Source: an uncultured cyanobacterium
GTDB taxonomy: Bacteria; Cyanobacteriota; Cyanobacteriia; Thermostichales; Thermostichaceae
Assembly (NCBI GenBank): GCA_937944885.1
Contig: CALFBB010000014.1
Location: 1-35,876, forward strand
DNA: 35,876 nucleotides
Direction: 5' to 3'
The translations under genes and the position numbers were made by a program. This document shows positions 1,087 through 35,638 of the stretch, one piece after another (within the stretch, counting starts at the first letter, position 1; every line of letters begins with the position of its first letter). Below the pieces are notes generated by a model. The model worked only from the letters and a program-made list of their open reading frames with translations, made no database searches and was not told where the DNA came from.

Positions 1087-1743
1087 CTACACCTTCAAAA
1101 TCCAGCGTTCCCGAGTATCAGCACTAACAAAGGGGGAGGGCACCACCAAGATGCTGGAGTCGAGGCTGTTAAAGACGGCCCGGATCGCTGTAGCATGGGC
1201 AACTTCGTTAGGGCCAATGGTGCTGGCGGCAGCCACCAAGTCTTTGTTAGACAGTTGGGTAAAAGCATCGTTGTAGGCCAGAGCCGCATCGAACTCTAGT
1301 GCAAGGGCGAGCTTAGCGATATTGGCATCAGAGTCGAGATTGCCTTCTTGATCGTCGATATAGGTGGAAAGATCGTAACTGTCGCGGGCTGGGGAGGGTG
1401 TTCCCCCCAACTGCCGGACAGCACCCGCCAACAGATCCCGGTGTTGTTCGTGGTCCTTGAGGTTCTTGGTAGCCACATCCAATACCACCTTGCCCACATC
1501 GGTGCTGCTCAATTTGCCGGCAGCGGTTTTGTAGGCCCAAATCGCCTGTTGTTCCAGGTCAATGGCGGCGTTGAGGATGGCGATATCAGCATTGGATTGG
1601 GCGGCACCGGGCAAGCTGCTCAACCCGATCGCTCCCCCCACACCGGCCAACAAGCCGGTCAACAACAGGCTGCGGCGAGAGGTGCTGGGATCCCATTCGG
1701 CAGCAAGGCGAGGCAGAGCCAATGGGGTTTTTGAGGTTTTCAT
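1087..1743 (-). CDS. Tat-exported ferritin-like domain protein
   Basis: This 218-residue protein starts with a twin-arginine signal: S-R-R-S-L-L-L at 22-28, a hydrophobic stretch to about 45 and a likely cleavage site after G-A-A-Q near 49. The mature part is a four-helix ferritin-like domain (Ferritin_2/DUF4439-like). Carboxylate and His positions typical of a di-metal site are visible in LEQQAIWAY (about 63-71), DHEQHRDLL (about 98-106), ALEFDAALAY (about 148-157) and NEVAHATAI (about 179-187). The family is common in bacteria but poorly characterised; metal binding and an oxidative-stress role are inference. Tat export suggests that a cofactor is loaded before export. A tatA gene lies at 7324-7665. 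Confidence 0.82.
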   Translation of the reverse strand: MKTSKTPLALPRLAAEWDPSTSRRSLLLTGLLAGVGGAIGLSSLPGAAQSNADIAILNAAIDLEQQAIWAYKTAAGKLSSTDVGKVVLDVATKNLKDHEQHRDLLAGAVRQLGGTPSPARDSYDLSTYIDDQEGNLDSDANIAKLALALEFDAALAYNDAFTQLSNKDLVAAASTIGPNEVAHATAIRAVFNSLDSSILVVPSPFVSADTRERWILKV

Positions 1744-8029: not shown

Positions 8030-8168
8030 CAAAAGCTCATCCCTGCTGCTCCTTTTATAACCGGTGCCATTTTTTGTTTTTGAAAGTTCTACCCAGTATT
8101 GGAGTGCTTGCTCCTAACTCAATCCAGGCCGTAGGGTGAAAAAGTTGAGCACTTTCTTGCCCCTGCCT

Positions 8169-9017
8169 ATGCCCAGTGCCACCTTGTTGGTGTCTTGCCC
8201 TGATCAAAAAGGGTTGGTTGCCAAGCTCTCTGCCTTCATCTACAGCTACGATGGCAACATTATCCACGCCGATCACCACACGGATCCAGAAGCAGGGTTG
8301 TTTTTGAGCCGTATCGAGTGGGATCTAGAGGGTTTCCAACTGGAACGGGCGGAAATCATTCCTGCTTTTTCCGGTATTGCCCGTGGGATCCAAGCCAACT
8401 GGCAACTGCACTTTTCCGATGCCCGTCCTCGCATTGCCCTTTGGACCAGCAAACAAAGCCACTGCCTGTTGGATCTGATCTGGCGGCAACGGGCTGGGGA
8501 GTTACCGGCAGACATCCCCCTGATCCTCAGCAATCACCCCGATTTAGAACCCATAGCCCGCTCCTTTGGTATCGACTATTACCACATTCCCGTTTCTGCA
8601 GATGGCAAAGCGGAAGCGGAAGCCCAACAACTCGCCCTCCTGCAGCAGTATCAGATTGATCTGGTGGTGCTGGCCAAGTATATGCAGGTTTTGAGCGGAT
8701 CCCTGCTCCGCCAAGCCCCACCGGTGATTAACATTCACCATTCGACCCTACCAGCTTTTCCTGGGGCCAATCCTTACCACCGCGCCTATGAACGGGGGGT
8801 GAAAATCATCGGGGCAACGGCCCACTACGCCACCGAAGAGCTGGATGAAGGTCCGATCATTGAGCAGGATGTGATACGGGTAAGCCACCGCGACACGGTT
8901 GCCGATCTAATCCGCAAGGGCCGAGATATGGAGCGGCTGGTCCTGGCCAGAGCCGTGCGCTACCACCTAGAAAATCGAGTTTTGGTTTACCACAACAAAA
9001 CGGTGGTATTCGAGTGA
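8169..9017 (+). CDS. purU: Formyltetrahydrofolate deformylase
   Basis: PurU hydrolyses 10-formyltetrahydrofolate to tetrahydrofolate and formate, balancing the one-carbon pool and supplying formate. Residues 1-80 form an ACT-like regulatory domain (SCPDQKGLVAKLS) and about 86-282 the formyl-transferase fold. The catalytic triad is visible as Asn188, His190 (INIHHSTLPAFPGANPYHRA) and Asp226 (ELDEGPIIEQ). The ATG at 8169 gives 282 residues, the normal length, and places SCPDQ at the usual distance from the start; a GTG at 8136 would add 11 residues. Formate is also made by PflB at 25591-27864, so this window encodes two formate sources. Confidence 0.93.
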   Translation: MPSATLLVSCPDQKGLVAKLSAFIYSYDGNIIHADHHTDPEAGLFLSRIEWDLEGFQLERAEIIPAFSGIARGIQANWQLHFSDARPRIALWTSKQSHCLLDLIWRQRAGELPADIPLILSNHPDLEPIARSFGIDYYHIPVSADGKAEAEAQQLALLQQYQIDLVVLAKYMQVLSGSLLRQAPPVINIHHSTLPAFPGANPYHRAYERGVKIIGATAHYATEELDEGPIIEQDVIRVSHRDTVADLIRKGRDMERLVLARAVRYHLENRVLVYHNKTVVFE

Positions 9018-9117: not shown

Positions 9118-9173
9118 CCAGGCAGACTCACTCCTTCCCAACGAGATCACTCGCAAGGCCTCATTCGTTATTG

Positions 9174-9208
9174 TTGATCGATTGCTATTATTGATCGATT
9201 ATTGATCG
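9174..9208. repeat. Short clustered TTGATCG repeats
   Basis: TTGATCG starts at 9174, 9191 and 9202, the first two as TTGATCGATT. They lie at the very 3' end of the TnpB remnant and probably arose by slippage in decaying sequence. Confidence 0.5.
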
Positions 9209-9214
9209 CTACAT

Positions 9215-9244
9215 CTACACCACGGTCACCTACACCACGGTCAT
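9215..9244. repeat. 15-bp tandem duplication inside the TnpB remnant
   Basis: CTACACCACGGTCAC at 9215-9229 is followed directly by a copy at 9230-9244 that differs only in the last base. Because the unit is 15 bp, the reading frame is kept and five residues are duplicated. Deleting one copy restores a normal TnpB D-R-x-V-x-x-A-x-N motif. Confidence 0.8.
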
Positions 9245-9609
9245 GGTGCGTTCCGCAATGGCTACAAGTCCACGCTCTAAGCTCAAAGCCGGGGCTGTCA
9301 ACTTGATTTAAGCATAGGTGGCAAGTTTTAGAGCTAGGAAACCACCGATCGATTTCAACTAGCCCAGCAGGAGTGCCGCGCTCTACCTGTCCAAAATTTG
9401 CCGCCCAAGCTGTGAGCAAGGTTCATCACTACTTGTCTTGTGGCTGGGTGGGAGATGCTGAGGCTATGAATGCTAGACTGGGGCGGCTGGTAAACTCGCC
9501 TGCAGGTTCGGGAAAAATGTCTTGTTCTTTGCAGGAGGTTGTTCTCAGGGCTATTGACAGCCCGCTCCGTATTACCTAGCCATCACAGTCGCTTAGTTTA
9601 CTTCCAAAG

Positions 9610-10473
9610 TCACCCATTGCTGCTTGCTTTGAGAAACTGATCGAGCAATACCTCTCCCGCAATCACCAGCACAGCATATCCGGCTATCTCCACACGGGAT
9701 CCAAGCGCTCGACAAAACAACTCGCCCCCGCGGGCAGAAACTTGGCGGGCTCTGAGTTCAACTTTGCCCAACCGTTCGGCCCAGTAGGGTATCAGTAGGC
9801 AATGGGCCGATCCAGTCACCGGATCTTCCGGGATCCCCAATTGTGGGGCGAAAACCCGAGAGACAAAATCCAGCTCCTCTATATCCTCTGCAGAGGCTGT
9901 TACAATCAAGCCGCTGCCGGCAAGGGCTTTAACCTCGGCTAGATTGGGCTGCAACTGCTGCACCTGCCGGGCAGAAGCCAACACGGCCAACCCCATTCCC
10001 CCTTGATACAACTCCAGAGGTACAACCCCCAATGCTGCCGACACCCTCTCCATGGCTTCTGGCCAGGGCTGTATGGGTTGGGCAGGAAAATCCATCATCA
10101 GCTGCTCCCCTTGTCGTTGCACCCGCAACAGTCCACTGCGGGTCAGAAACTCCACTGTCTCCGCTTGCGGATCCACTTGGGTGAACAACACATGGGCACT
10201 AGCCAAGGTGGCATGACCGCAGAGATCGACTTCCGTGGTCGGAGTAAACCAACGCAATTGGTACCGGAGAGTTCTACCTTGGGATCCCTGGCGGAGCAAA
10301 AAGGCTGTTTCCGAAAGATTATTCTCAGCAGCAATCTGCTGCAGGAGTCGCTCCGCCAATCCATCTTTGGGGAGCAAACAAACCGCTGCTGGGTTGCCGG
10401 CAAAGGGCTTGCGAGTGAAGGCATCAACTTGAAAAAAGGGGATCCGCACGGCACCCATAAATCCTTGGTTCAC
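9610..10473 (-). CDS. PhzF-family isomerase/epimerase-like protein
   Basis: This 287-residue protein has the two-lobed diaminopimelate-epimerase-like fold of PhzF. Marks are the N-terminal FFQVDAFTRKPFAGNPAAVC, the catalytic Glu55 in NNLSETAF, DLCGHATLA at about 83-91 and the second-lobe DPVTGSAHC with its Gly-Ser-Ala-His turn. PhzF itself isomerises a phenazine precursor, but no other phenazine gene is present, and most members of this family have unknown substrates. The likely role is an uncharacterised metabolic isomerase. An alternative start at Met6 is possible. An 8-bp perfect hairpin lies 28-52 bp upstream of the start. Confidence 0.88.
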   Translation of the reverse strand: MNQGFMGAVRIPFFQVDAFTRKPFAGNPAAVCLLPKDGLAERLLQQIAAENNLSETAFLLRQGSQGRTLRYQLRWFTPTTEVDLCGHATLASAHVLFTQVDPQAETVEFLTRSGLLRVQRQGEQLMMDFPAQPIQPWPEAMERVSAALGVVPLELYQGGMGLAVLASARQVQQLQPNLAEVKALAGSGLIVTASAEDIEELDFVSRVFAPQLGIPEDPVTGSAHCLLIPYWAERLGKVELRARQVSARGGELFCRALGSRVEIAGYAVLVIAGEVLLDQFLKASSNG

Positions 10474-10500
10474 AGAATTAGAAAGCTACCCTCTTTTTCC

Positions 10501-10525
10501 CTCTCCGCAAGAAGCTGGCGGAGAG
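10501..10525 (-). promoter_or_regulatory. Hairpin in probable 5' leader of the phzF-like gene
   Basis: CTCTCCGC at 10501-10508 is the reverse complement of GCGGAGAG at 10518-10525, with a 9-base loop. On the minus strand it is followed by a purine run, not by T residues, so it is not a normal terminator in that direction. A leader-stability or attenuation role is a guess. Confidence 0.35.
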
Positions 10526-10615
10526 AAGCAGAGCCATAGGGGTAAGCCCGGCTCCTCCGTTGGGATGAACTCTGGCAAGGGCCAGGGAGTCCATGTCTTG
10601 CGCTGGAGCTGCGCC

Positions 10616-10641
10616 CATGGCTGATGAGCATGGCTGATGAG
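10616..10641. repeat. Perfect 13-bp tandem repeat
   Basis: CATGGCTGATGAG is present twice head-to-tail at 10616-10628 and 10629-10641, about 140 bp upstream of psbV. It may be a recent slippage duplication or a duplicated binding site. Confidence 0.75.
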
Positions 10642-10781
10642 GATGTCTGGAACAGATTGTAAAACTGGCTAGGGACCCTATCTGCAAATGATCTCTTAAT
10701 GGTCTATTCTTAATACTGTTGTCGGGTTAGTGGTTGGAGCGGAGTTGACCCCTCCCTTCTCAGACTGCTTTACGGAGAACC

Positions 10782-11324
10782 ATGTTTAGCAAATCTTTTC
10801 CTTTTCAAAGTTTGTTCACGCTGGCGCACCGTCGCTTTCTCACCTCGATTTTGGTTGCGTTGGTGGCTATGTTTGGCTGGGGGCTGGCTCCGGCACTGGC
10901 GGCCAAGGATATTCCCGCTGTTGCGCTGTCGCCAACTGAGACTATTACCTTTACCGAGAGGGAGCTGGCCAGAGGCAAGAAGCTCTTCAATGCCAACTGT
11001 GCCCAATGCCATGTTGGCGGCCAAACCTACCCCAACCCGGATGTGAGCCTGAAGCTCTCTGACCTAGAGGGGGCAACCCCACCCCGTGATAACGTGTTGG
11101 CTATTGTCGACTACATTAAGAACCCGGTCACCTATGACGGGGTAGAATCCCTACTGGAGTACCACCCCAACACCCAGCTCATTAGCGAGTACCCCCGTCT
11201 GCGTAACCTTAACGATGAGGATCTGAAGCTGATTGCCGGCTACATTTTGGTGCAGGCAAAAACCTTGCCTGGCTGGGGTGGCACCAAGAGTGAAAGCCAC
11301 AGTGACTTGGCAGGCTATCTCTAA
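10782..11324 (+). CDS. psbV: Cytochrome c-550, photosystem II extrinsic protein PsbV
   Basis: PsbV is a lumenal monohaem c-type cytochrome that stabilises the oxygen-evolving Mn cluster of photosystem II. The 180-residue precursor has a signal peptide to about residue 41 (APALA-A). The haem is attached at Cys73-x-x-Cys76-His77, and the normal sixth ligand is present as His128 in EYHPN. LATPP-like (EGATPPRDN) and the C-terminal LPGWGG segments match the family. A GGAG ribosome-binding site precedes the ATG. The stop codon shares one base with the start of psbV2 (TAATG), so the pair is translationally coupled. Confidence 0.97.
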   Translation: MFSKSFPFQSLFTLAHRRFLTSILVALVAMFGWGLAPALAAKDIPAVALSPTETITFTERELARGKKLFNANCAQCHVGGQTYPNPDVSLKLSDLEGATPPRDNVLAIVDYIKNPVTYDGVESLLEYHPNTQLISEYPRLRNLNDEDLKLIAGYILVQAKTLPGWGGTKSESHSDLAGYL

Positions 11325-11860
11325 TGCTCAATCTGCCGATCAATCTCGGTCAGAAGCGGCTTAGCTCATCAGGGATCCCTTCCTGGGCATGGTTAGGGAT
11401 CCTTCTCTTCCTGTGGTTGGGGGTATCTAGCCCGGTAGCTGCTCGTATCGATCCCTATGTGAGTCAGTACTTGCGGGTGAGTGGCCCGGTGGAGTTGCCT
11501 TTCGACGGGCAAGGGCATACCCTCACCTTTACCCCCGAGCAGCTCACAGATGGCAAAAACCGCTTCCAGTCTGCCTGTCTAAACTGTCATGTAGGGGGGG
11601 CAACTCTGCCTGCTCCCAATGTCTCTCTTTCTCTCAAGGACTTACACGGCGCGACTCCACCCCGGGATACGATTCAAGCCTTGGTGGAATACCAAAGGGA
11701 TCCCCTCAGCTACGATGGCTCTGATTTTAACTATGGTTGCCGTCCGGTGCCCCCCTCCTGGATGGATGACGAGGCCCTACAAAACTTGGCGGCCTTTATT
11801 CTTAGGGCGGCCCAAGTTGCACCCGGTTGGGGGTCGAATGATTGGATAGATGCCGGTTAA
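11324..11860 (+). CDS. psbV2: Cytochrome c-550-like protein PsbV2
   Basis: This 178-residue paralogue of PsbV starts on the last base of the psbV stop codon. The signal peptide runs to about 40 (SSPVAA), and haem is bound at Cys85-x-x-Cys88-His89. GATPPRDT and VAPGWG match psbV. The segment that carries the sixth-ligand His in PsbV is shortened to DFNYGCRPVP, with Cys139 at or near the ligand position. From the literature on the Thermosynechococcus protein, PsbV2 is associated with unusual His/Cys haem ligation, so Cys139 is the likely axial ligand here; this residue assignment is my inference. It would give a very low redox potential. It is not a substitute for PsbV in a simple sense; its role is unsettled. 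Confidence 0.93.
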   Translation: MLNLPINLGQKRLSSSGIPSWAWLGILLFLWLGVSSPVAARIDPYVSQYLRVSGPVELPFDGQGHTLTFTPEQLTDGKNRFQSACLNCHVGGATLPAPNVSLSLKDLHGATPPRDTIQALVEYQRDPLSYDGSDFNYGCRPVPPSWMDDEALQNLAAFILRAAQVAPGWGSNDWIDAG

Positions 11861-12586
11861 CGGTTTTGAAAGGAGCCTCTTTCCCTGCAGGAATGCCGGT
11901 GAGGGGAGAAGCTCAAAAGAATCAGAGGGCAATCCCCAATTGTGGTGTGGGCTAGCATCCTCTGCGCTCAAGTGAAATCAGACAATTACCACCTACCTGA
12001 AGAGCCGTCGCAGCGCTCCGCTTCTAGCCCTAGGCTGGAGGGTGATGTAGAAGGTTGTTCCTGTCCCATCAGCGTTGCGGAGCAATAGCGGCGGGCGACC
12101 CAAGGGAACAATCCCCCAATCTCTGCTTGCCGTTCAATGGATTGTTTGATGATAGGTAGGGCATACCGGAGAGCAGACAGTAGGTTCGGCTTCAAAATAT
12201 GGGCCTGATACGGGCTTGCCGCGGTCAACCTGATTCATGTGCTCAGGCAAGTCCTTGCTAATGAACCGACTTTGCAGGATGAGCGTCACCGTCAGGGGTA
12301 GGCTAGCTGCGACGCCTTAATCGGCGATCCTGTTATGATTGAGGTAACCGTTAAACCCTTTTAACTCAGCGGGCCTGGCGCCCTGCTTTGTTGAGCCTAG
12401 AGGTATAGGTCTTTACCCATTGCGCAAGGGCTGAGCCGGTGGGGTTAGTCAAGCGCAAGGGGTTTCGTATTTTTTAGGCCGAGCCGGTGCATTCAGAGTT
12501 ACCTACTGATCTCAACAAGTTCAAGGGGTGCAGGGTTCTGTGTGGGCTACTCTCCCGTTTACAGTTCCACAAGTCGGGGAAGAACT
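11861..12586 (+). other. 726-bp region between psbV2 and the Cys-rich gene
   Basis: No convincing protein gene is seen on either strand; an 80-codon minus frame at 11986-12228 has no recognisable features. An extended -10-like sequence (TG-T-TATGAT, 12331-12339) is followed by structured-looking sequence. This includes an imperfect GC-rich hairpin near 12369-12388 and repeated words (GAGCCGGTG twice, GCGCAAGGG twice) between 12420 and 12490. A 5' leader of about 245 nt for the downstream gene, or a small RNA, are both possible. Confidence 0.4.
12331..12339 (+). promoter_or_regulatory. Possible extended -10 promoter element
   Basis: TGTTATGAT matches the extended -10 pattern TGnTATAAT with one change. 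No good -35 is seen 17 bp upstream, which is tolerated for extended -10 promoters. It would drive the gene at 12587 with a long leader, or a small RNA. Confidence 0.25.
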
Positions 12587-25007: not shown

Positions 25008-25590
25008 AGATCTCCACTGAGGAAAAGTCAACACCTAGCTCACAAAAGATGAATTAGGGAACAATTAGGGATGAGTGTCCAACCGAATAGGGGAAAATGG
25101 AGAAAACTTAAGATGATCTAAAGATTTAGAGTTGTGAGTGTCGTTGAGCTCATTCTTTAAGATTATATTAGGAAAAGTGATATCTAACCTTGCTTAAGAA
25201 CTCTTAAAAAATCTGCTTTACCAGCTGTTTTGACAGTTTGATTGTATCAAGTTGTATCAGTCTACTTTCAGGATAGAACCAGAAAAAGCCATCAGGGCTC
25301 ATTTTCTGGGTGCTTCCCAAAAAATTGAGATAAATTTCTGTAGATTTTTTTATAGACTTTGACGGCATGGGCTGACCTTGGCAACTGATTTAGAGATTTA
25401 GAAGATTTAGAATAGATGCATACAGGATAAAGCTAAGAGCAAAAAACAACACAATTGTTGAGAAATATCGGCTAGATCTCCTCAGGGCTGAAGGCAATCT
25501 CAACTGTAAACTGTAATCTCCATGCTCTCGGCTGGACAGATTCTGTCTTTGTTCTGTCTTTGCACCAATAACCTAGGAGGACAGATAGAT
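25008..25590. promoter_or_regulatory. A/T-rich divergent control region between pfkA and pflB
   Basis: No gene is seen in these 583 bp, which are much richer in A/T than the flanking genes. Elements visible are the inverted repeat TTGAT-TGT-ATCAA at 25238-25250, a nearby second GTTGTATCA word, and a short GATTTAGA(G/A) repeat run at about 25388-25412. The pflB ribosome-binding site (AGGAGG) is at about 25575-25580. The size and composition suggest regulated promoters for both genes. Confidence 0.55.
25238..25250. promoter_or_regulatory. Inverted repeat TTGAT-N3-ATCAA, possible regulator site
   Basis: The half sites are identical to those of the FNR consensus (TTGAT-N4-ATCAA), but the spacer is three bases, not four. 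A CRP/FNR-family protein would not bind this exactly as usual, so either a variant regulator or coincidence is possible. It lies about 340 bp before the pflB start and about 230 bp before pfkA. Confidence 0.3.
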
Positions 25591-27864
25591 ATGGTTGTCG
25601 ATGTACTCTCACGGCCTCAAGGATATGAAACAACTGCTCCAGAGGCTCCAAAGTCATTTGTACCCGGCCCTTGGCAAGCCACCATCGATGTCAGAGATTT
25701 CATTCAGCGCAATGTTACCCCCTATACGGGTGATGAATCCTTTCTGGCAGCAGCGACTGAGCGCACTGAGCAGCTGTGGGCCAAGGTGCAGGATTTGATG
25801 GCTCTAGAGCGGGAGCGAGGGGTTTTGGATGCCGACACCGCGGTACCGTCTAGCATCACCAGTCATGCCCCCGGCTACATTGATCCTGAGCTAGAGCAAA
25901 TTGTTGGGCTGCAAACCGACAAACCCCTAAAGCGGGCGATTATGCCCTTTGGTGGGATCCGAGTTGTGGAAACCTCCCTTAGAGCCTATGGCTACGAGTT
26001 GGATCCCCAGACGAAAACCATTTTTACCACCTACCGCAAAACCCACAACGATGGGGTTTTCGATGCCTACACCGAAGAGATGCGCCGCTGTCGCCGCTCC
26101 GGGATCATCACCGGTTTGCCGGATGCCTATGGCCGGGGGCGGATTATTGGGGATTACCGGCGGGTGGCTCTCTACGGGGTGGATCGGCTGATCGAGGACA
26201 AGCAGGTTCAAAAACAGGGCCTCGAGCTCGACACTATGGATGAAGACACCATTCGTCTGCGGGAGGAACTCTCGGAACAGATCAAGGCTTTGCAGGAGCT
26301 AAAAGAACTGGGATCCCGCTACGGGTTTGATTTGGCTCGTCCGGCAAGCAATGCCCGTGAAGCAATCCAGTGGCTGTACTTTGGCTATTTGGCAGCGGTG
26401 AAGGAGCAAAATGGGGCAGCCATGTCCTTGGGGCGGGTTTCTACCTTTTTGGATATCTACCTCGAGCGGGATCTGCAAGCTGGCCTCCTCACCGAAGCAG
26501 AAGCCCAGGAGCTGATCGACCACTTTGTTATGAAGTTGCGCATGGTTCGCTTTTTGCGCACCCCCGAATACAACGAGTTGTTCAGCGGGGATCCCACCTG
26601 GGTAACCGAGTGCATCGGCGGCATGAGCATTGACGGGCGACCTTTGGTGACCAAAACCAGCTTCCGCATGCTGCACACCCTGACTACGCTTGGCCCTGCT
26701 CCTGAACCCAACCTGACGGTACTCTGGTCGGAGCGGCTGCCGGAGAACTTCAAGCGCTACTGTGCCAAGGTTTCTATCCAAACCAGCTCGATCCAATACG
26801 AAAACGACGATCTGATGCGCCCCTACTGGGGGGATGACTACGGCATCGCCTGCTGTGTATCAGCCATGCGCATTGGCAAGCAAATGCAATTTTTCGGAGC
26901 ACGGGTGAACCTAGCCAAGTGCTTGCTCTATGCCATTAACGGTGGCAAAGATGAAATATCGGGTGAGCAAGTGGCCCCGGCCTATGCCCCGATCACAGCT
27001 GATGTACTGGATTATGCAGAAGTGTGGCCGCGCATGGTACAGATGATGGCTTGGTTGGCAAAAACCTATGTCAACACCATGAACATCATCCACTACATGC
27101 ACGACAAATACTGCTACGAGCGCCTCGAGATGGCCTTGCATGACCGGGACATCCTGCGCACCATGGCCTTTGGTATTGCCGGTTTGTCGGTGGTAGCGGA
27201 TTCTCTTTCGGCCATTAAATATGCGCGGGTGCGGGTGATCCGTGATGAACGGGGCTTGGCGGTGGATTACGTAGTGGATGGGGACTTCCCCAAATACGGC
27301 AACAACGACGACCGGGTGGATGCCATCGCCGTGCAACTGGTGCAAACCTTTATGGCGGAGCTGCGTAAGCACAAAACCTATCGCAATGCTGTGCCTACCC
27401 AGTCGATTCTCACCATCACCTCCAATGTGGTGTACGGCAAAAAGACAGGCAATACCCCCGATGGACGACGGGCAGGTCAGCCTTTTGCGCCGGGGGCCAA
27501 CCCCATGCACGGGCGGGATACCAAAGGAGCAGTAGCTTCTCTGGCTTCGGTGGCTAAGCTGCCCTACGCCGATGCCCAGGATGGCATTTCCAACACCTTC
27601 TCGATTGTGCCGGCGGCCTTAGGACGCACAGAGGAGGAGCGGGTGGAGAACTTGGTGAATCTACTGGACAGCTATATACGAGATGGGGGCTTCCATCTAA
27701 ATGTGAATGTTTTTAGCCGCGAGACCCTACTGGATGCTATGGAGCACCCGGAGCTGTACCCACAGCTCACCATTCGGGTATCGGGTTACGCCGTTAACTT
27801 CATCAAGCTCACCCGTGAGCAGCAGTTGGATGTTGTCAACCGAACCTTCCATCAACACTGTTAA
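25591..27864 (+). CDS. pflB: Pyruvate formate-lyase (glycyl-radical enzyme)
   Basis: PflB converts pyruvate and CoA to acetyl-CoA and formate without oxygen. The 757-residue protein carries the adjacent active-site cysteines Cys421-Cys422 ([10 protein letters not shown]) and the C-terminal radical site Gly732 in RVSGYAVNF. The segment [20 protein letters not shown] and the Cys-Cys pair mark true PFL, not a dehydratase or decarboxylase of the superfamily. The ATG at 25591 is chosen because AGGAGG precedes it and the length then equals the family norm; an upstream frame to 25522 adds 23 unrelated residues. The activase is encoded two genes downstream. The protein is destroyed by oxygen when active, so it should work only in dark anoxic cells. 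Confidence 0.98.
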
Positions 27865-27880
27865 GAACACATCAGAACAG

Positions 27881-27945
27881 GGGTGAGGGATTAGGGATCC
27901 CCTTCATTCTCCTCAAGCGGGAGCAAAAGTAGGGATCCCTCACCC
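27881..27945 (+). promoter_or_regulatory. Long stem-loop between pflB and the pentapeptide gene
   Basis: GGGTGAGGGAT at 27881-27891 is the exact reverse complement of ATCCCTCACCC at 27935-27945. Inside, CTCC and GGAG about 27910-27922 can form a smaller hairpin. The structure starts 16 bp after the pflB stop and has no T-run. It fits an mRNA processing or stabilising element that would let pflB message accumulate above the downstream genes. Confidence 0.65.
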
Positions 27946-27976
27946 ACACCCTCAATCCATTCATCGGGAGGGCTCT

Positions 27977-28345
27977 ATGAGCATGGCTGTCCACAGTATT
28001 GAAGACCTTGTTTGTCAATACGCAGCGGGAAAACGAGATTTTCAGGAGACTGAACTGCCATACGCCGATCTAAGCGGGATCCACTTAGCCGGAGCGGATC
28101 TCAGCTATGCCGATTTTAGTGGCGCTAACCTGACCAGGAGCAATTTGCGTGGGTGTGACCTGAGTTTTGCCGATTTTAGGGGTGCCAACCTATCAGGAGC
28201 CGATTTGCGCGGGTGTCTACTCTTTGGCAGTAACTTCCAGGGAGCCGACCTAGAAGGCGCCCTATGGGATCAATCCGATTTTGATGCTTATACCCACTTT
28301 CCTGAGAAGTTTGATCCCAGAGCCCATCACATGCGTGAGGTTTAG
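27977..28345 (+). CDS. Pentapeptide-repeat protein inside the pfl cluster
   Basis: This 122-residue protein has a short helical N-terminus (about 1-25) followed by roughly thirteen A(D/N)LXX-type pentapeptides between about 29 and 97 (e.g. GADLSYADFSGANL, GANLSGADLRG). These fold as a right-handed four-sided beta helix. A short tail follows (DAYTHFPEKFDPRAHHMREV). There is no signal or membrane span, so it is cytoplasmic. GGGAGGG precedes the ATG. Position between pflB and pflA on the same strand suggests a role with pyruvate formate-lyase, for example as scaffold or protective partner, but pentapeptide proteins are very common in cyanobacteria and function is unknown. Confidence 0.85.
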   Translation: MSMAVHSIEDLVCQYAAGKRDFQETELPYADLSGIHLAGADLSYADFSGANLTRSNLRGCDLSFADFRGANLSGADLRGCLLFGSNFQGADLEGALWDQSDFDAYTHFPEKFDPRAHHMREV

Positions 28346-28497
28346 TTGGAGCTGCCTAGGATTACCCAAATTGCTTTTCTATCTATTTTCCATCTAAAGG
28401 AAACTAAAAATTGTATTCAAATTAACACAAGTATATCAATTCGAAAGAAAACCTCAAGATTGGTTGAGATTTTCAAAAAGTAATCCAGGATAAAGGT
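28346..28497 (+). other. A/T-rich spacer before pflA
   Basis: This 152-bp spacer is distinctly A/T-rich compared with its neighbours and could hold a separate pflA promoter. CTCAA and TTGAG about 28454-28469 form a weak 5-bp hairpin. No strong promoter match was found. Confidence 0.35.
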
Positions 28498-29253
28498 ATG
28501 AACACTATAGACAGCACCCCTTCGACAGGGCAAACAACAGGACGCATTCACTCCATTGAGACCTGTGGCACAGTTGACGGGCCAGGGATCCGTTTTGTTG
28601 TTTTTATGCAAGGGTGTCCGCTGCGCTGTTTGTACTGTCACAATCCTGATTGTCGGGATCCCCATGAAGGGCAGCTGATGACGGTTGAAGAGCTGGTGGC
28701 AGAAATTGGGAAAACACGCAACTACCTGCGCAAGGGGGGAGTTACTGCTACTGGAGGGGAGCCCTTGATGCAGCCGCAGTTTGTGGCGGAGCTGTTCCGG
28801 CGCTGTCATCAGCTGGGGCTGCACACCGCCCTAGATACATCGGGTTTTGTACAGCTTGAGGCAGCAAAACCGGTGTTGGAGCATACAGATTTGGTATTGC
28901 TGGATATCAAGTCTTATTTGCCGGACTTGTACTACAAAGTTACCCATGTACCTTTAGAGCCAACCTTGAACTTTGCCCGCTATTTGGCCCAGATTCACAA
29001 GCCCACTTGGGTGCGCTTTGTGCTGGTGCCGGGGCTGACGGATCCCGAAGAAAATGTGAAGGGTTTGGCGGAATTTGTGGCCCAACTGCCCAATGTGGAA
29101 CGGGTAGAGGTGCTGCCTTTTCACAAGATGGGGGAATACAAGTGGGAGCAGTTGGGTCTGCCCTATCTCCTCAAAGATGTAGAGCCACCTTCACCCCAAC
29201 AGGTGGCCAAGGTGGTGCAGATCTTTCGGGATCAGGGTCTGAAAGCCAGTTAA
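28498..29253 (+). CDS. pflA: Pyruvate formate-lyase activating enzyme
   Basis: This radical-SAM enzyme uses a [4Fe-4S] cluster and S-adenosylmethionine to place the glycyl radical on PflB. The 251-residue protein has the cluster motif Cys40-x3-Cys44-x2-Cys47 (GCPLRCLYCHN), preceded by CGTVDGPGIR as in known PFL activases, and GVTATGGEPLMQP for SAM binding. LDTSGF and DIKSY complete the pattern. There is no extra ferredoxin-like Cys insert, so it is of the simple PflA type and not the class found with glycerol or benzylsuccinate enzymes. The next gene starts 17 bp after its stop. Confidence 0.97.
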   Translation: MNTIDSTPSTGQTTGRIHSIETCGTVDGPGIRFVVFMQGCPLRCLYCHNPDCRDPHEGQLMTVEELVAEIGKTRNYLRKGGVTATGGEPLMQPQFVAELFRRCHQLGLHTALDTSGFVQLEAAKPVLEHTDLVLLDIKSYLPDLYYKVTHVPLEPTLNFARYLAQIHKPTWVRFVLVPGLTDPEENVKGLAEFVAQLPNVERVEVLPFHKMGEYKWEQLGLPYLLKDVEPPSPQQVAKVVQIFRDQGLKAS

Positions 29254-29270
29254 GTTCTAGGAGTTTTTCT

Positions 29271-29675
29271 ATGGATGTGCACATCACCTATCAAGATGGG
29301 GTCAAATTTCAGGCTGAAAGTCGTGGCCATCGCATCTTAAGCGATCAACCTCTCGATAACCACGGCCAAGATGAGGGGATGACCCCACCGGAATGGTTCT
29401 TGGCCTCCTTAGGGGCTTGTGTCGGGTTTTATGCCCTCAAATATCTGGAGGCACGACAGTTGGATCCAAGTGGGTTGGAGGTGGTGGTGACGGCGGACAA
29501 AGTGGAGCATCCCACCCGACTTGACAACATCCGCATTCAGCTCAAGAGCGGGATCCCCTTGGAGGAGCGACATCAAAGGGGCCTGGAAAAAGCAGTGGAT
29601 GCCTGCATTATTCACAACACTCTCACTCACCCTCCCACCCTGATCACCGAGATTCAAGTTCCTGTCGGAGTCTAG
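29271..29675 (+). CDS. OsmC/Ohr-family protein
   Basis: This 134-residue protein of the OsmC superfamily uses two cysteines to reduce organic or other hydroperoxides. The pair is visible as Cys50 (LASLGACVGF) and Cys112 (VDACIIHNTL), the second within a helix as in the family; GMTPPEWFLAS is a typical start of the central helix. The ATG at 29271 follows TAGGAG by a few bases and lies 17 bp after pflA. A longer frame from 29007 overlaps pflA and is not real. Placement between pflA and adhE suggests protection of the oxygen-sensitive fermentation enzymes when oxygen returns; that is inference. The YhfA-like branch of the family has no proven activity. Confidence 0.88.
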   Translation: MDVHITYQDGVKFQAESRGHRILSDQPLDNHGQDEGMTPPEWFLASLGACVGFYALKYLEARQLDPSGLEVVVTADKVEHPTRLDNIRIQLKSGIPLEERHQRGLEKAVDACIIHNTLTHPPTLITEIQVPVGV

Positions 29676-29799
29676 CAGTTGTCTAACAGCTCAGATCACT
29701 CTTTTTCCTACATATTCTCCGGGATGAGGATTTTCTTTTTGAAGGTTATCTCTGGTGTTTCTCATTGTTGATAAGCGTTAATGAGCTTTGGAGGGATCC

Positions 29800-32436
29800 A
29801 TGCCGGTTACAAATCTAGCTGAACTCGAAGCCTTAATCCAACAGGTGAAAGCTGCCCAAGCCCAATACGCAACCTTTACTCAGGAACAGGTGGATCAGAT
29901 TTTCCACAAAGCAGCCTTGGCCGCCAATAGCGAACGGATCCCTTTGGCCAAGCTGGCCGTCCAGGAAACGGGTATGGGTGTGGTAGAAGACAAGGTCATC
30001 AAAAATCACTTTGCCTCTGAGTATATCTACAACAAATACAAACACGAAAAGACCTGTGGGGTAATCGAGCGGGATGAAGCCTTTGGCTACGAAAAAATTG
30101 CCGAACCTGTGGGCATCCTGGCCGGGATTGTGCCGGTGACCAACCCCACCTCTACCACCCTTTTCAAGGCTCTGATTACCCTAAAGACCCGTAATGCCAT
30201 TGTCTTTTCCCCACACCCGCGGGCTAAGCGCTGTACCATTGCTGCTGCCAAGATTGTCAAGGAAGCGGCAGAGGCTGCTGGTGCCCCTGTAGGCTTGATT
30301 GGCTGGATTGATGAACCGACGGTAGAGCTGTCCCAGGCGCTGATGCAGCACCCGGAGGTGAAGTTGATTTTGGCTACGGGAGGGCCCGCCATGGTAAAGG
30401 CCGCCTATTCCTCTGGGCATCCTTCTTTGGGGGTTGGGGCAGGTAACACTCCAGCCGTGATCGATGCCAGTGCCGATATTCCCATGGCGGTGAGCTCCAT
30501 TCTGCTGAGCAAGACTTTTGACAACGGCATGATCTGTGCTTCTGAACAGGCGGTGGTGGTGGTGGAGGCCATCTATGAGCAGGTGAAGGCCGAGTTTCAG
30601 AATCGCGGCGCCTACATTCTGGATGCAGAACAAACGGCAGCTGTTCGTCAAGTCCTTCTCAAAGAGGGTCGCCTGAATCCGGCGGTGGTGGGTCAATCGG
30701 TTGAGGCCATTGCAAAACTGGCTGGGATCCAGGTGCCAGAAGGGGCGAAAGTATTGATTGGGGAAGTGAACAAGGTGGGGGTGGAGGAACCCTTCTCTTA
30801 TGAAAAGTTGGCGCCGGTGTTGGCCCTCTACCGCGCCCCTGATTTTCATACTGCTGTGGAGATAGCCTCCCAACTGGTCAATTTTGGCGGGCCTGGCCAT
30901 ACTTCTGTGCTCTATACGGATCCTGCCAATCGGGATGATATTGCCTACTTTGAAAATACTTTGCAAACCGCAAGGGTACTGATCAATACACCTTCTTCGC
31001 AAGGGGCAATTGGGGATCTCTACAACTTTAGGTTGGATCCCTCCCTCACCCTCGGCTGCGGCACGTGGGGAGGCAACTCAGTTTCCGACAATGTGGGGCC
31101 ACACCACCTGCTCAACTTCAAAACCGTTACCCAACGGCGGGAAAACATGCTCTGGTTCCGGGTTCCGCCCAAGATCTATTTCAAGCCAGGCTGTCTGCCG
31201 GTGGCGCTGCGGGAGCTAGCGGGCAAACAACGGGCCTTTTTGGTTACCGATAAACCCCTCTTTGACCTGGGGATGTTACGCCCTGTTACTCAGGTGTTGG
31301 ATGAGATCAAGGTCAATTGGGATGTCTATCACGATGTGGAGCCGGATCCCACCCTTAGCAACGTCAATCGGGGTCTGGAGCAACTGCGCCACTTCCAGCC
31401 GGATGTAATCATTGCTGTGGGTGGCGGATCCCCCATGGATGCAGCCAAGGTGATGTGGTTGATGTATGAGCAGCCGCAGGTGGAGTTTGAGGGGCTGGCG
31501 ATGCGCTTTATGGACATCCGCAAGCGTGTCTATGAGCTGCCGCCTTTGGGGCGCAAGGCGCAACTGATCTGCATCCCCACTACTTCTGGCACCGGATCGG
31601 AAGTGACTCCCTTTGCGGTGGTTACGGATGACCGGGTGGGGATCAAGTATCCCCTGGCGGATTATGCCCTCACCCCCAGTATGGCGATTGTGGATCCGGA
31701 TTTAACCCTAAACATGCCCAAGCGGCTGACCGCCTATGGTGGCATTGATGCTCTCACCCATGCCCTAGAAAGCTATGTGTCAGTCATGGCCAGCGACTTT
31801 ACCGATGGGCTGGCGCTGCAGGCAATCAAACTGTTGCTCACCTACCTGCCACGGGCTTATGAGCGGGGAGCCCAGGATCCAGAAGCTCGTGAGCGGGTTC
31901 ACTACGCCGCCACCATAGCAGGGATGGCCTTTGCCAATGCTTTCTTGGGAGTATGCCACTCGCTGGCCCACAAGCTGGGATCCACTTTCCATGTGCCGCA
32001 TGGGCTGGCCAATGCCTTGATGATCAGTCATGTGATCCGCTACAACGCCACGGATGCTCCCTTCAAACAGGCCATCTTCCCGCAATATCGCTATCCCAAC
32101 GCCAAGCACCGCTATGCCGAGATTGCCGATTATCTGCAACTGGGGGGCAGCACCGATGATGAAAAAGTAATGCGGCTCATCGATGCCATCGAAGATCTCA
32201 AGCAAAAAGTTGGCATCCCCAAAACCATTCGGGAGACCCTGAGTGAAAGTGAGCAAGAGTTTTACGATCATCTGGAAACGATGGCGGAGCAAGCCTTTGA
32301 TGATCAATGTACCGGCGCCAACCCCCGCTATCCGCTGATTCGGGATATGAAGGAGTTGTACGTTTTGGCCTATCGCGGCTTTAAGGTGGATGCTGCCCTT
32401 TACCACCGAGAAGATCCTGTGTTGGCTTCAACATAG
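29800..32436 (+). CDS. adhE: Bifunctional acetaldehyde/alcohol dehydrogenase
   Basis: AdhE reduces acetyl-CoA to acetaldehyde and then ethanol with two NADH. The 878-residue protein has an N-terminal aldehyde dehydrogenase half (about 1-440; catalytic Cys246 in NGMICASEQ, Gly-rich GVGAGNTPAV) and a C-terminal iron alcohol dehydrogenase half (about 450-878; NAD site GGGSPMDAAK; metal-binding Asp and His in GGIDALTHALESY and GVCHSLAHKLGSTFHVPHG). It should assemble into spirosome filaments like its relatives. TTTGGAGGG precedes the ATG at 29800; a TTG at 29788 would overlap that site. Ethanol formation reoxidises NADH made in glycolysis, matching the pfkA/pflB context. Confidence 0.97.
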   Translation: MPVTNLAELEALIQQVKAAQAQYATFTQEQVDQIFHKAALAANSERIPLAKLAVQETGMGVVEDKVIKNHFASEYIYNKYKHEKTCGVIERDEAFGYEKIAEPVGILAGIVPVTNPTSTTLFKALITLKTRNAIVFSPHPRAKRCTIAAAKIVKEAAEAAGAPVGLIGWIDEPTVELSQALMQHPEVKLILATGGPAMVKAAYSSGHPSLGVGAGNTPAVIDASADIPMAVSSILLSKTFDNGMICASEQAVVVVEAIYEQVKAEFQNRGAYILDAEQTAAVRQVLLKEGRLNPAVVGQSVEAIAKLAGIQVPEGAKVLIGEVNKVGVEEPFSYEKLAPVLALYRAPDFHTAVEIASQLVNFGGPGHTSVLYTDPANRDDIAYFENTLQTARVLINTPSSQGAIGDLYNFRLDPSLTLGCGTWGGNSVSDNVGPHHLLNFKTVTQRRENMLWFRVPPKIYFKPGCLPVALRELAGKQRAFLVTDKPLFDLGMLRPVTQVLDEIKVNWDVYHDVEPDPTLSNVNRGLEQLRHFQPDVIIAVGGGSPMDAAKVMWLMYEQPQVEFEGLAMRFMDIRKRVYELPPLGRKAQLICIPTTSGTGSEVTPFAVVTDDRVGIKYPLADYALTPSMAIVDPDLTLNMPKRLTAYGGIDALTHALESYVSVMASDFTDGLALQAIKLLLTYLPRAYERGAQDPEARERVHYAATIAGMAFANAFLGVCHSLAHKLGSTFHVPHGLANALMISHVIRYNATDAPFKQAIFPQYRYPNAKHRYAEIADYLQLGGSTDDEKVMRLIDAIEDLKQKVGIPKTIRETLSESEQEFYDHLETMAEQAFDDQCTGANPRYPLIRDMKELYVLAYRGFKVDAALYHREDPVLAST

Positions 32437-32476
32437 GGGGCTGGTGTTGTGCAAGCTCTGAGGAGGATGTTTTTCC

Positions 32477-32560
32477 ATGCAAACTCTCCGATTGAGACTC
32501 ACAACTGAGGTGAAAACGCTCTGCCGGATTTGGATGAAAAAGGTCAGCCTTGCAGGATGA
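32477..32560 (+). CDS. Possible 27-residue small protein
   Basis: ATG at 32477 follows AGGAGG (32461-32466) with a 10-base gap and runs to TGA at 32558-32560. The product (MQTLRLRLTTEVKTLCRIWM followed by KKVSLAG) is basic and amphipathic. Support is only the good ribosome-binding site and its place 40 bp after adhE. It may well be chance. Confidence 0.2.
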   Translation: MQTLRLRLTTEVKTLCRIWMKKVSLAG

Positions 32561-32861
32561 GTCTAGAACCGGCCAAAGCAGAGGTAGGGATCCCTAGGGA
32601 TTGACCGGCCAACTTTTAGAGGATAGCGATGAGCATCCTGAGCTTGATGTTGATGTTTTGATGGGTTCTTGACCACGATAGGTTTGCCTAGGGTTTATCC
32701 CTTGATGTTATTCCTAAAGGGAGGCCTAAGTTGGATTGTCCTATCAGGAGTGTTCTAGAAAACCAGAGGGATCGCTGAGAAGGTAGGGAGGCGGTTGATT
32801 TGTCAGTTCATCTGAGCCATTTTATGAGGGTTTCCTCTCTCATTCCAAGTCCACTTCTACT

Positions 32862-32918
32862 ATGACAAACTCACCTCAAAGTCATGCTGAAAAGGGATCC
32901 CCCTTATCGAAGGAGTGA
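32862..32918 (+). CDS. Possible 18-residue leader peptide before the ACD-GNAT gene
   Basis: ATG at 32862 to TGA at 32916-32918 encodes [18 protein letters not shown]. The stop lies within the ribosome-binding region of the downstream gene, so translating it could affect initiation at 32924. No run of a regulatory amino acid is seen, and no ribosome-binding site of its own is clear. Confidence 0.2.
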
Positions 32919-32923
32919 AGGCT

Positions 32924-35638
32924 ATGTTGTACTGTCCAGACCCAGTTGTCGATGTGTGGAAAACGGGATCCCATCCTCTGGATCCCATTTTTTCTCCTGA
33001 CTCAGTGGCTGTAATTGGCGCTACTGAACGGGAGGGAAGTGTAGGGCGAACGGTTTTGTGGAACCTGATTAGCCATCCTTTTGGGGGCACAGTTTATCCG
33101 ATCAACCCCAAACGGCACAGTGTTCTAGGGATCCGAGCTTATGACCGAATTACATCCTTGCCTGAGCCAGTGGATCTGGCGGTGATTGCCATTCCTGCGG
33201 CTGGGGTGCCTGCTGTTGTGCAAGAGTGTGTTGAGGCCGGGGTTAAAGGCATAATTATTCTCTCGGCTGGCTTTAAGGAAACAGGAGCAGCAGGGATTCA
33301 GCTGGAACAGCAAATCAAGCAAATTGCCCAGGGAAAGTTGCGCCTTATTGGCCCCAACTGTCTGGGGATCCAAAACCCCCACAGAGGGTTAAATGCGACT
33401 TTTGCTAACCAAATGGCCCGTCCCGGCAATGTGGGCTTTATCAGCCAAAGTGGGGCCTTGTGTACCTCGATTTTAGATTGGAGCTGGCAAGAAAATGTAG
33501 GTTTTAGCGCCTTTATTTCCTTAGGCTCCATGCTGGATGTGGGCTGGGGAGATTTGATCGACTATCTGGGGGATGATCCCCATACCCACAGCATTGTCCT
33601 CTACATGGAATCCATCGGGGATGCCCGCTCTTTCCTTTCGGCAGCCCGCGAGGTGGCCCTGAGCAAACCGATCATCGTGATCAAGGCCGGTCGCACCCAA
33701 GCGGCGGCCCAGGCCGCGGCTTCCCACACGGGATCCCTAACCGGCAGTGATGATGTGCTGGAGGCTGCCTTCCGCCGTTGTGGTGTGCTGCGGGTCAACC
33801 ACATTGAAGATCTTTTCGACATGGCAGAGGTGCTGGCCAAGCAACCCCGCCCTAAGGGACCTCACTTGAGTATTATCACCAATGCAGGCGGGCCGGGGGT
33901 GCTGGCTACTGATGCTTTGATTCGGGCCGGGGGAGCCCTGACGGAACTCTCAGCTACCACCGTTGAGGCCCTCAACCGCTTTTTACCCCCCCACTGGAGC
34001 CACGGCAACCCCATTGACATTTTGGGAGATGCGGAGCCGGAGCGTTTTGCCCGCACCTTGCAGACGGTGCTGCAGGATCCCAACAGTCAGGGGTGTCTAA
34101 TCATTCTCACCCCGCAAGCGATGACGGATCCCACCCTCACAGCCACCCAAGTGGTGGAGACCTGGCGCAACAGCGGATCCCGGCAACCGATTTTGGCCAG
34201 TTGGATGGGAGGGAGCCAAGTGGATGCAGGGGAAGCAATTCTCAATCAAGCCGGGATCCCTACCTATCGCTACCCGGATCAGGCGGCCCGTGTATTTAGC
34301 CATCTCTGGCGGTTTAGCTACAGCCTGAAAGCCCTTTACGAAACTCCTACTCTGGCCAGCCACGAACCGACTGAGCGGGACAAGGTGGAACAGATTCTAG
34401 AACAGGCGCAGGTGGAGCAACGCACCCTCTTGACCGAAGCCGAATCCAAGGGGATCCTAGCCGCCTATGGGATCCCGGTGGTGCCCACCCTGGTGGCGGA
34501 TAGCCCTGAAGCTGCGGTACGAGCTGCCGCAGGCATGGGGTACCCGGTGGTGCTTAAGCTCTACTCCCATACCCTGACCCACAAAACCGATGTGGGTGGG
34601 GTACAGCTGAATCTACCGGATGCCGAGGCGGTGCGCCGAGCCTATCAGCAAATTCAAACCAATGTCAGCGAAAAAGCAGGGCTAAACCATTTCCAAGGGG
34701 TGACGGTGCAGCCCATGATCCGCACCGATGGTTATGAGTTAATCCTGGGCAGCAGTCAAGATCCGCAATTTGGCCCGGTGCTGGTGTTTGGCAGTGGTGG
34801 CCAACTGGTGGAGGTGTTTCAGGATCGCTCCATTGGCCTACCCCCCCTCAATACCACCCTGGCCCGACGCATGATGGAGAACACCCTCATCTACAAGGCC
34901 CTCAAAGGGGTACGGGGACGCAAAGCGGTGGATTTAGAGGCCCTAGAGCAACTTTTGGTGCGCTTCAGCCAACTGGTGGCCGAACAACCTCGCATCAAAG
35001 AAATCGACATCAACCCGCTACTGGCCTCACCCGATGGCTTATTGGCTCTCGATGCCCGCATCATTTTGCGCTCGGAGCAGGATCCGCAGGTACCGTTAGC
35101 GATTCGGCCTTACCCAACACAATACATCTGGCCCTTCCGGGATGGCATCACCATTCGTCCGATTCGCCCGGAAGATGAGCCCCTGATCATTGCCTTTCAC
35201 CGGCATGTTTCTGAAAAGAGCGTCTATCTGCGCTATTTCCATGCGATGAAATACAGCGCCCGTGTTGACCATGAGCGCCTCACCCGCATTTGCTTCAACG
35301 ACTATGACCGAGAAATTGCTCTAGTGGCGGAGCGGCTGGAGCCGGAACCTACCATCCTAGGGGTCTGCCGGCTGACCAAAAAACATGGGCTTCCGGAAGC
35401 AGAGTTTGCCATGCTGGTGCCGGATCCCTATCAAGGGCAGGGGATCGGTACCGCCCTATTGACCCGTTTGACCGAAGTGGCCCGTCAGGAAGGACTGGAG
35501 CGCCTAACCGGGGAGGTCTTGTCAGAGAACGAAGCCATGCGTCGTCTGTGCAAACGGCTTGGCTTCCGTTTAGAACCAGCAAGGGATCCCGGGATCCTCA
35601 AGGCTGCCCTGCCGCTGACCCTATCTTCCCAAACCTGA
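32924..35638 (+). CDS. ADP-forming acyl-CoA synthetase fused to GNAT acetyltransferase
   Basis: This 904-residue protein has four parts: a CoA-binding domain (about 20-135), a succinyl-CoA-synthetase-like part (about 145-455), an ATP-grasp domain (about 470-690) and a C-terminal GNAT domain (about 725-895) with the acetyl-CoA loop QGQGIGTA. This is the layout of the Pat/YfiQ protein acetyltransferases and of ADP-forming acetyl-CoA synthetases. The phospho-carrier His268 in ASHTGSL is present, and ATP-grasp signatures ([19 protein letters not shown]) look intact, so acetate plus ATP formation from acetyl-CoA is plausible. AAGGAG lies 8 bp before ATG 32924. With pflB upstream it could form acetate; the GNAT part may acetylate lysines when acetyl-CoA is high. 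Confidence 0.92.

Follow-up and report, generated by a model that had tools for sequence, protein, structure and literature searches.

A psbV-psbV2 tandem from an uncultured cyanobacterium, and the conservation of cysteine at the sixth haem ligand position of PsbV2

Identity of the psbV-psbV2 tandem

The window analyzed here, a stretch of 35,876 nucleotides from an uncultured cyanobacterium of the family Thermostichaceae (contig CALFBB010000014.1 of assembly GCA_937944885.1), encodes two cytochromes in direct succession, the second of which carries a Cys where the first has the His that serves as sixth haem ligand. The locus raises three questions: whether the Cys is peculiar to one genome, what the abutting reading frames say about joint production of the two proteins, and what a second cytochrome of this kind would do.

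The upstream gene, psbV (10782..11324, forward strand), encodes the photosystem II cytochrome c-550, 180 residues long, with haem motif Cys73-Cys76-His77 and sixth-ligand His128. The downstream gene, psbV2 (11324..11860, forward strand), encodes a PsbV2 cytochrome of 178 residues, in which a haem-binding motif, CLNCH (Cys85, Cys88 and His89; 11576..11590, forward strand), is followed by Cys139-Arg140 at the sixth-ligand position (11738..11743, forward strand). Residue numbers for both proteins follow the precursors, and in that numbering His128 and Cys139 had been placed correctly by a sequence-only reading of this DNA. The same reading described the genes as adjacent and overlapping by one base, as indeed they are: at the TAATG junction (11322..11326, forward strand) the stop codon TAA and the start codon ATG share a single A.

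PsbV2 scores 264 bits against the NCBI equivalog model TIGR03046, for which the cut-off is 148.35, and PsbV scores 201.3 bits against TIGR03045, for which it is 177.75. The Pfam model Cytochrom_C550 matches the two proteins at 179.7 and 129.8 bits against a cut-off of 27. The best PDB match to PsbV2, and its closest solved relative by sequence, is 4lji, the crystal structure of PsbV2 from Thermosynechococcus elongatus (E 1.7e-50). These scores and the PDB match exclude the possibility that either reading frame is a chance artefact. A model of PsbV2 predicted by AlphaFold from 45 PsbV2 sequences (mean pLDDT 86.5, pTM 0.76) returned 4lji as top match both by Foldseek (E 3.1e-16) and by VIA-align (Z 23.3, rmsd 1.5 over 133 residues), the next VIA-align match having a Z of 17.2. 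The T. elongatus protein (tll1284, also a TIGR03046 member) has family, fold, ligand positions and a place behind psbV in common with the PsbV2 of the window. No second PsbV2 above the TIGR03046 cut-off was found by profile search of the window's genome, which is 95% complete.

We put the probability at roughly 0.93 that the pair is the known cyanobacterial psbV-psbV2 tandem, with His89/Cys139 haem ligation in PsbV2. PsbV would then be the usual His/His-ligated extrinsic cytochrome of photosystem II, and PsbV2 its paralogue, with the cytochrome c-550 fold, an N-terminal hydrophobic segment and one covalently bound haem c held between His89 and Cys139, with an eight-residue deletion just past the latter ligand. 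Both the tandem and the Cys-for-His haem ligand are already in databases and literature, down to the crystal structure; what is new here is the breadth of conservation over 45 psbV2 loci.

The haem ligand site

His89 and Cys139 of the window's PsbV2, fifty residues apart, align with chain positions His51 and Cys101 of 4lji, which we take to be the published axial ligands of T. elongatus PsbV2, and His128 of the window's PsbV aligns with the corresponding His of T. elongatus PsbV. That Cys replaces the sixth-ligand His is thus right in substance, with one refinement of detail: Cys139 falls one alignment column ahead of His128, and it is Arg140 that occupies the His column. The segment was also said to be shortened in PsbV2, and eight alignment columns present in PsbV are in fact missing shortly past Cys139.

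Across the psbV2 loci the site is uniform. Cys occupies the ligand column in all 45 PsbV2 sequences and Arg follows it in all 45, counts to be read with the fact that most of these loci were chosen by TIGR03046, a probe favouring Cys-bearing proteins, and that the sub-cut-off matches examined were 64 PsbV. The same eight columns are absent throughout, and both Cys and the His of the haem-binding motif are invariant (45/45). The ligand His, in turn, is kept by the 44 partner PsbV proteins from psbV2 loci (44/44) and by those from genomes with no psbV2 match over the cut-off (20/20), hence by all 64 PsbV examined. A further Arg, Arg125, is invariant in PsbV2 and specific to it; 36 of 44 PsbV have Lys there. 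A Cys private to the window's genome is excluded by its presence in 45/45 PsbV2.

The membership in TIGR03046, the alignment of both ligands with those of 4lji and the invariance of the Cys together give good support to the proposal of His/Cys ligation in PsbV2. Because the predicted model holds no haem, we infer the bond between Cys139 and iron in the window's species from the solved orthologue. Among references 12-16, given in the introduction of PMC4423706 for c-type cytochromes with cysteine-coordinated haems, is the 4lji structure; the same introduction describes natural examples of such haems as few.

Distribution of psbV2 among cyanobacteria

The sequence-only reading had proposed a survey of psbV2 in other thermophilic cyanobacteria, and we carried this out across the phylum. 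Of 386 sampled genomes, 167 had some match to TIGR03046 at E 0.001 or better, and 41, spread over 16 family groups, had a match above the cut-off; in the remaining 345, no psbV2 above the cut-off was found. Scores fall into two groups, the lowest over the cut-off being 150.8 bits and the highest under it 109.7 bits, which belongs to the window's own PsbV. All six genomes of the window's genus have a psbV2 above the cut-off. The 45 distinct loci compared here comprise the 41 of the phylum sample, three more of the genus, and one contig of a named MAG (L034); a locus scan with a single protein of the window as query had returned two relatives only. A survey limited to thermophiles looks too narrow, judging by the spread over family groups rather than by habitats.

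The Cys is not confined to one thermophile, being kept in 45 of 45 PsbV2 over 16 family groups and the named MAG. It sits mostly beside a PsbV that keeps its His, and the two genes offer a clean natural pair for studying the effect of a Cys ligand on a photosynthetic cytochrome. According to a 2025 review (PMC12661325), it is still unclear if the haem of PsbV itself plays any redox part in photosystem II.

Gene order and the overlapping junction

In 44 of the 45 psbV2 loci, psbV lies upstream on the same strand. The sole locus without an adjacent psbV in the examined stretch (L027, from genome G011) has a psbV-like match on the same contig, at a distance of about 0.77 Mb. Published comparisons describe the tandem in all Thermosynechococcus included in PMC7005997 and, in PMC8832068, a tandem in Leptodesmis but separated psbV and psbV2 genes in Thermoleptolyngbya.

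The one-base overlap is distributed far more narrowly. With the first ATG of the psbV2 frame taken as start, it occurs in 6/6 genomes of the window's genus and in 0/38 of the other pairs, where that ATG falls 11 to 423 bases past the psbV stop; in some of these loci psbV contains GTG or TTG codons in frame with psbV2, possible earlier starts. By the same count the overlap is not conserved across the tandems, and we regard it as a genus-level detail. The TAATG junction had been taken to show coupled translation, and hence that the cell makes both proteins together. An overlap of this kind permits coupling by termination-reinitiation but does not demonstrate it, and neither statement holds in the form given, the overlap being confined to one genus, where psbV2 is moreover truncated in one of six genomes (see below). 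In T. elongatus, transcripts of psbV and psbV2 both increase with irradiance (PMC5340862), a shared response that fits joint transcription in that species.

Within the window, a consensus scan of 10480-12540, run to see if a promoter separates the genes, returned no promoter-like and one terminator-like site against shuffle means of 1.1 and 2.3, which is below chance and hence uninformative, and Rfam models gave no matches anywhere in the window. Downstream, a petJ-like open reading frame lies within 1.5 kb of psbV2 in at least 19 of the 45 loci (some stretches being shorter), none of them from the window's genus. The loci whose PsbV2 is closest to 4lji (L003, L004 and L006) differ from the window on both counts: their first ATG is 29-30 nt past the psbV stop, rather than overlapping it by 1 nt, and a petJ-like frame comes next, whereas the window has none within 1.5 kb.

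A truncated psbV2 and the ancestry of the pair

One genome of the same genus, G177, carries a psbV2 (1197-1694, forward strand, of its locus L058) that is normal through the Cys-Arg site, diverges past the equivalent of Ala151, and finishes in a foreign stretch. Its new 3' end is overlapped, on the opposite strand (L058 1666-2880, reverse), by a 404-residue TnpB-type open reading frame scoring 78.2 bits to PF07282 and 36.0 bits to OrfB_IS605. A search of G177 for a remnant of the lost psbV2 end gave just one further DNA match, of 23 bases near 290 kb, where the open reading frames are unrelated by eye. In the G177 lineage psbV2 is probably dispensable, an argument against its having to act jointly with PsbV. 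That one of the six genomes in the genus has a truncated copy, and that 345 of the 386 sampled genomes have no psbV2 above the cut-off, indicates that the gene is dispensable in many lineages.

In FastTree trees PsbV2 forms one clade, separated from PsbV with support of 1.0, or 0.999 with the ligand region masked. Distances among PsbV proteins correlate with those among their PsbV2 partners (44 pairs; Mantel r 0.60, matched by 0 of 999 permutations), as predominantly joint inheritance of the pair with frequent loss of psbV2 would predict. The window's genus is the first branch within PsbV (support 0.945, masked 0.964) and also within PsbV2, the latter with support of 0.833 but only 0.128 once masked. 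The supports are those of FastTree, for trees without an outgroup, the IQ-TREE tree having been built without bootstrap. An early duplication giving rise to psbV and psbV2 is likely from these trees, a reading limited by the weak masked support and the lack of an outgroup.

Possible functions of PsbV2

The reading that we prefer, tentatively and at somewhat less than even odds, is that PsbV2, which would reside in the thylakoid lumen, would act as a soluble low-potential redox protein descended from PsbV, and not as its structural double or a second structural PsbV. The two proteins have the fold and the CxxCH site in common (VIA-align Z 16.2 and 17.2 for the cytochrome c-550 structures 1mz4 and 1e29; TIGR03045), but PsbV differs in its sixth-ligand His (64/64), in the eight extra columns past it, and usually in a W(G/A)(G/A)GK tail. 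In the slightly broader form W(G/A)(G/A)G(K/T), this C-terminal motif is present in 36 of 44 PsbV and 0 of 45 PsbV2, which is weak support for a role other than that of PsbV, since the PsbV of the window's own genus lacks the motif as well (0/6, versus 36/38 in other loci). The PsbV of the genus ends instead in HSDL(A/S)(G/A)YL (window 11268-11324).

The very low potential suggested for PsbV2 is plausible in direction by analogy with TsdA, whose active-site His/Cys haem has a potential of -134 mV, rising to +75 mV once the Cys leaves (PMC9562282); no value for PsbV2 was found in the literature searched. TsdA and SoxA resemble PsbV2, on the ligation and potential proposed for it, as c-type cytochromes with a low-potential His/Cys-ligated haem, but they are sulfur enzymes with a catalytic role for the Cys, and no SoxA or TsdA chain is among the best 50 VIA-align or the best 50 Foldseek matches of the PsbV2 model. 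A similar fold with a Cys at a Met position, according to its title, is that of 4h0j, an engineered Nostoc cytochrome c6 M58C (VIA-align Z 11.3), a laboratory mutant; Met58 is presumably the sixth ligand of that cytochrome. Counting against a soluble, non-structural PsbV2 is a far-red photosystem II preparation described as having PsbV1 and PsbV2 isoforms (PMC9843442), where the name PsbV2 may denote another family.

PsbV2 might instead be a stand-in for PsbV, attaching to photosystem II in its place as a second extrinsic subunit, with an incidental Cys. This is unlikely, in our view, despite the family fold (Z 14-17 to PSII-bound PsbV), the tandem position and the common light response, because the Cys-Arg pair is invariant in all 45 sequences, from which the PsbV C-terminal motif is absent, and because among the PDB matches listed the only PsbV2 is 4lji, an isolated protein.

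A reactive haem-thiolate center resembling that of TsdA, in which the Cys would leave the iron and react with sulfur compounds or oxidants, would make PsbV2 an enzyme or redox sensor of the lumen. The invariant Cys139, with Arg140 and Arg125 invariant and specific to PsbV2, may be compared with the TsdA pocket, which has two conserved Arg residues and a dissociating Cys (PMC9562282). SoxA and TsdA, however, do not appear among the Pfam, PDB-sequence or fold matches listed, the literature searched yielded no reaction for PsbV2, and we consider this improbable. A long shot, which we rate lower still, has PsbV2 parting from PsbV before the window's genus diverged from other cyanobacteria, as an ancient, second cytochrome in oxygenic photosynthesis. 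Its invariant Cys-Arg site would be a switchable haem-thiolate whose Cys leaves on oxidation or adduct formation, making the protein sulfur-reactive or a lumen redox reporter rather than a plain electron carrier.

We find it least credible that psbV2 in the window's genus is a degenerating duplicate, retained solely through its position in the psbV transcript. One copy among the six genomes, truncated and adjoining a TnpB gene, might suggest this, but the other five are intact, 76-86% identical to the window protein and in possession of all family-invariant residues.

Other features of the window

A TnpB-type C-terminal fragment (9168-9419, reverse strand; PF07282, 37.7 bits) is flanked by a formyltransferase/ACT gene (8136-9017) and a PhzF-like gene (9610-10473). 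Near the start of the window, a cupredoxin-like protein, which falls just under both Pfam cut-offs, is encoded beside a ferritin-like protein (75.8 bits) with a start that resembles a twin-Arg signal by eye (502-897 and 1087-1743, both reverse strand). Toward the other end, a run of genes resembling fermentation (25522-35638, forward strand throughout) encodes a pyruvate formate-lyase (25522-27864), a radical SAM protein that may be the pyruvate formate-lyase activator (28498-29253), an aldehyde/alcohol dehydrogenase (29788-32436), and an acyl-CoA synthetase-like protein with a GNAT domain (32915-35638).
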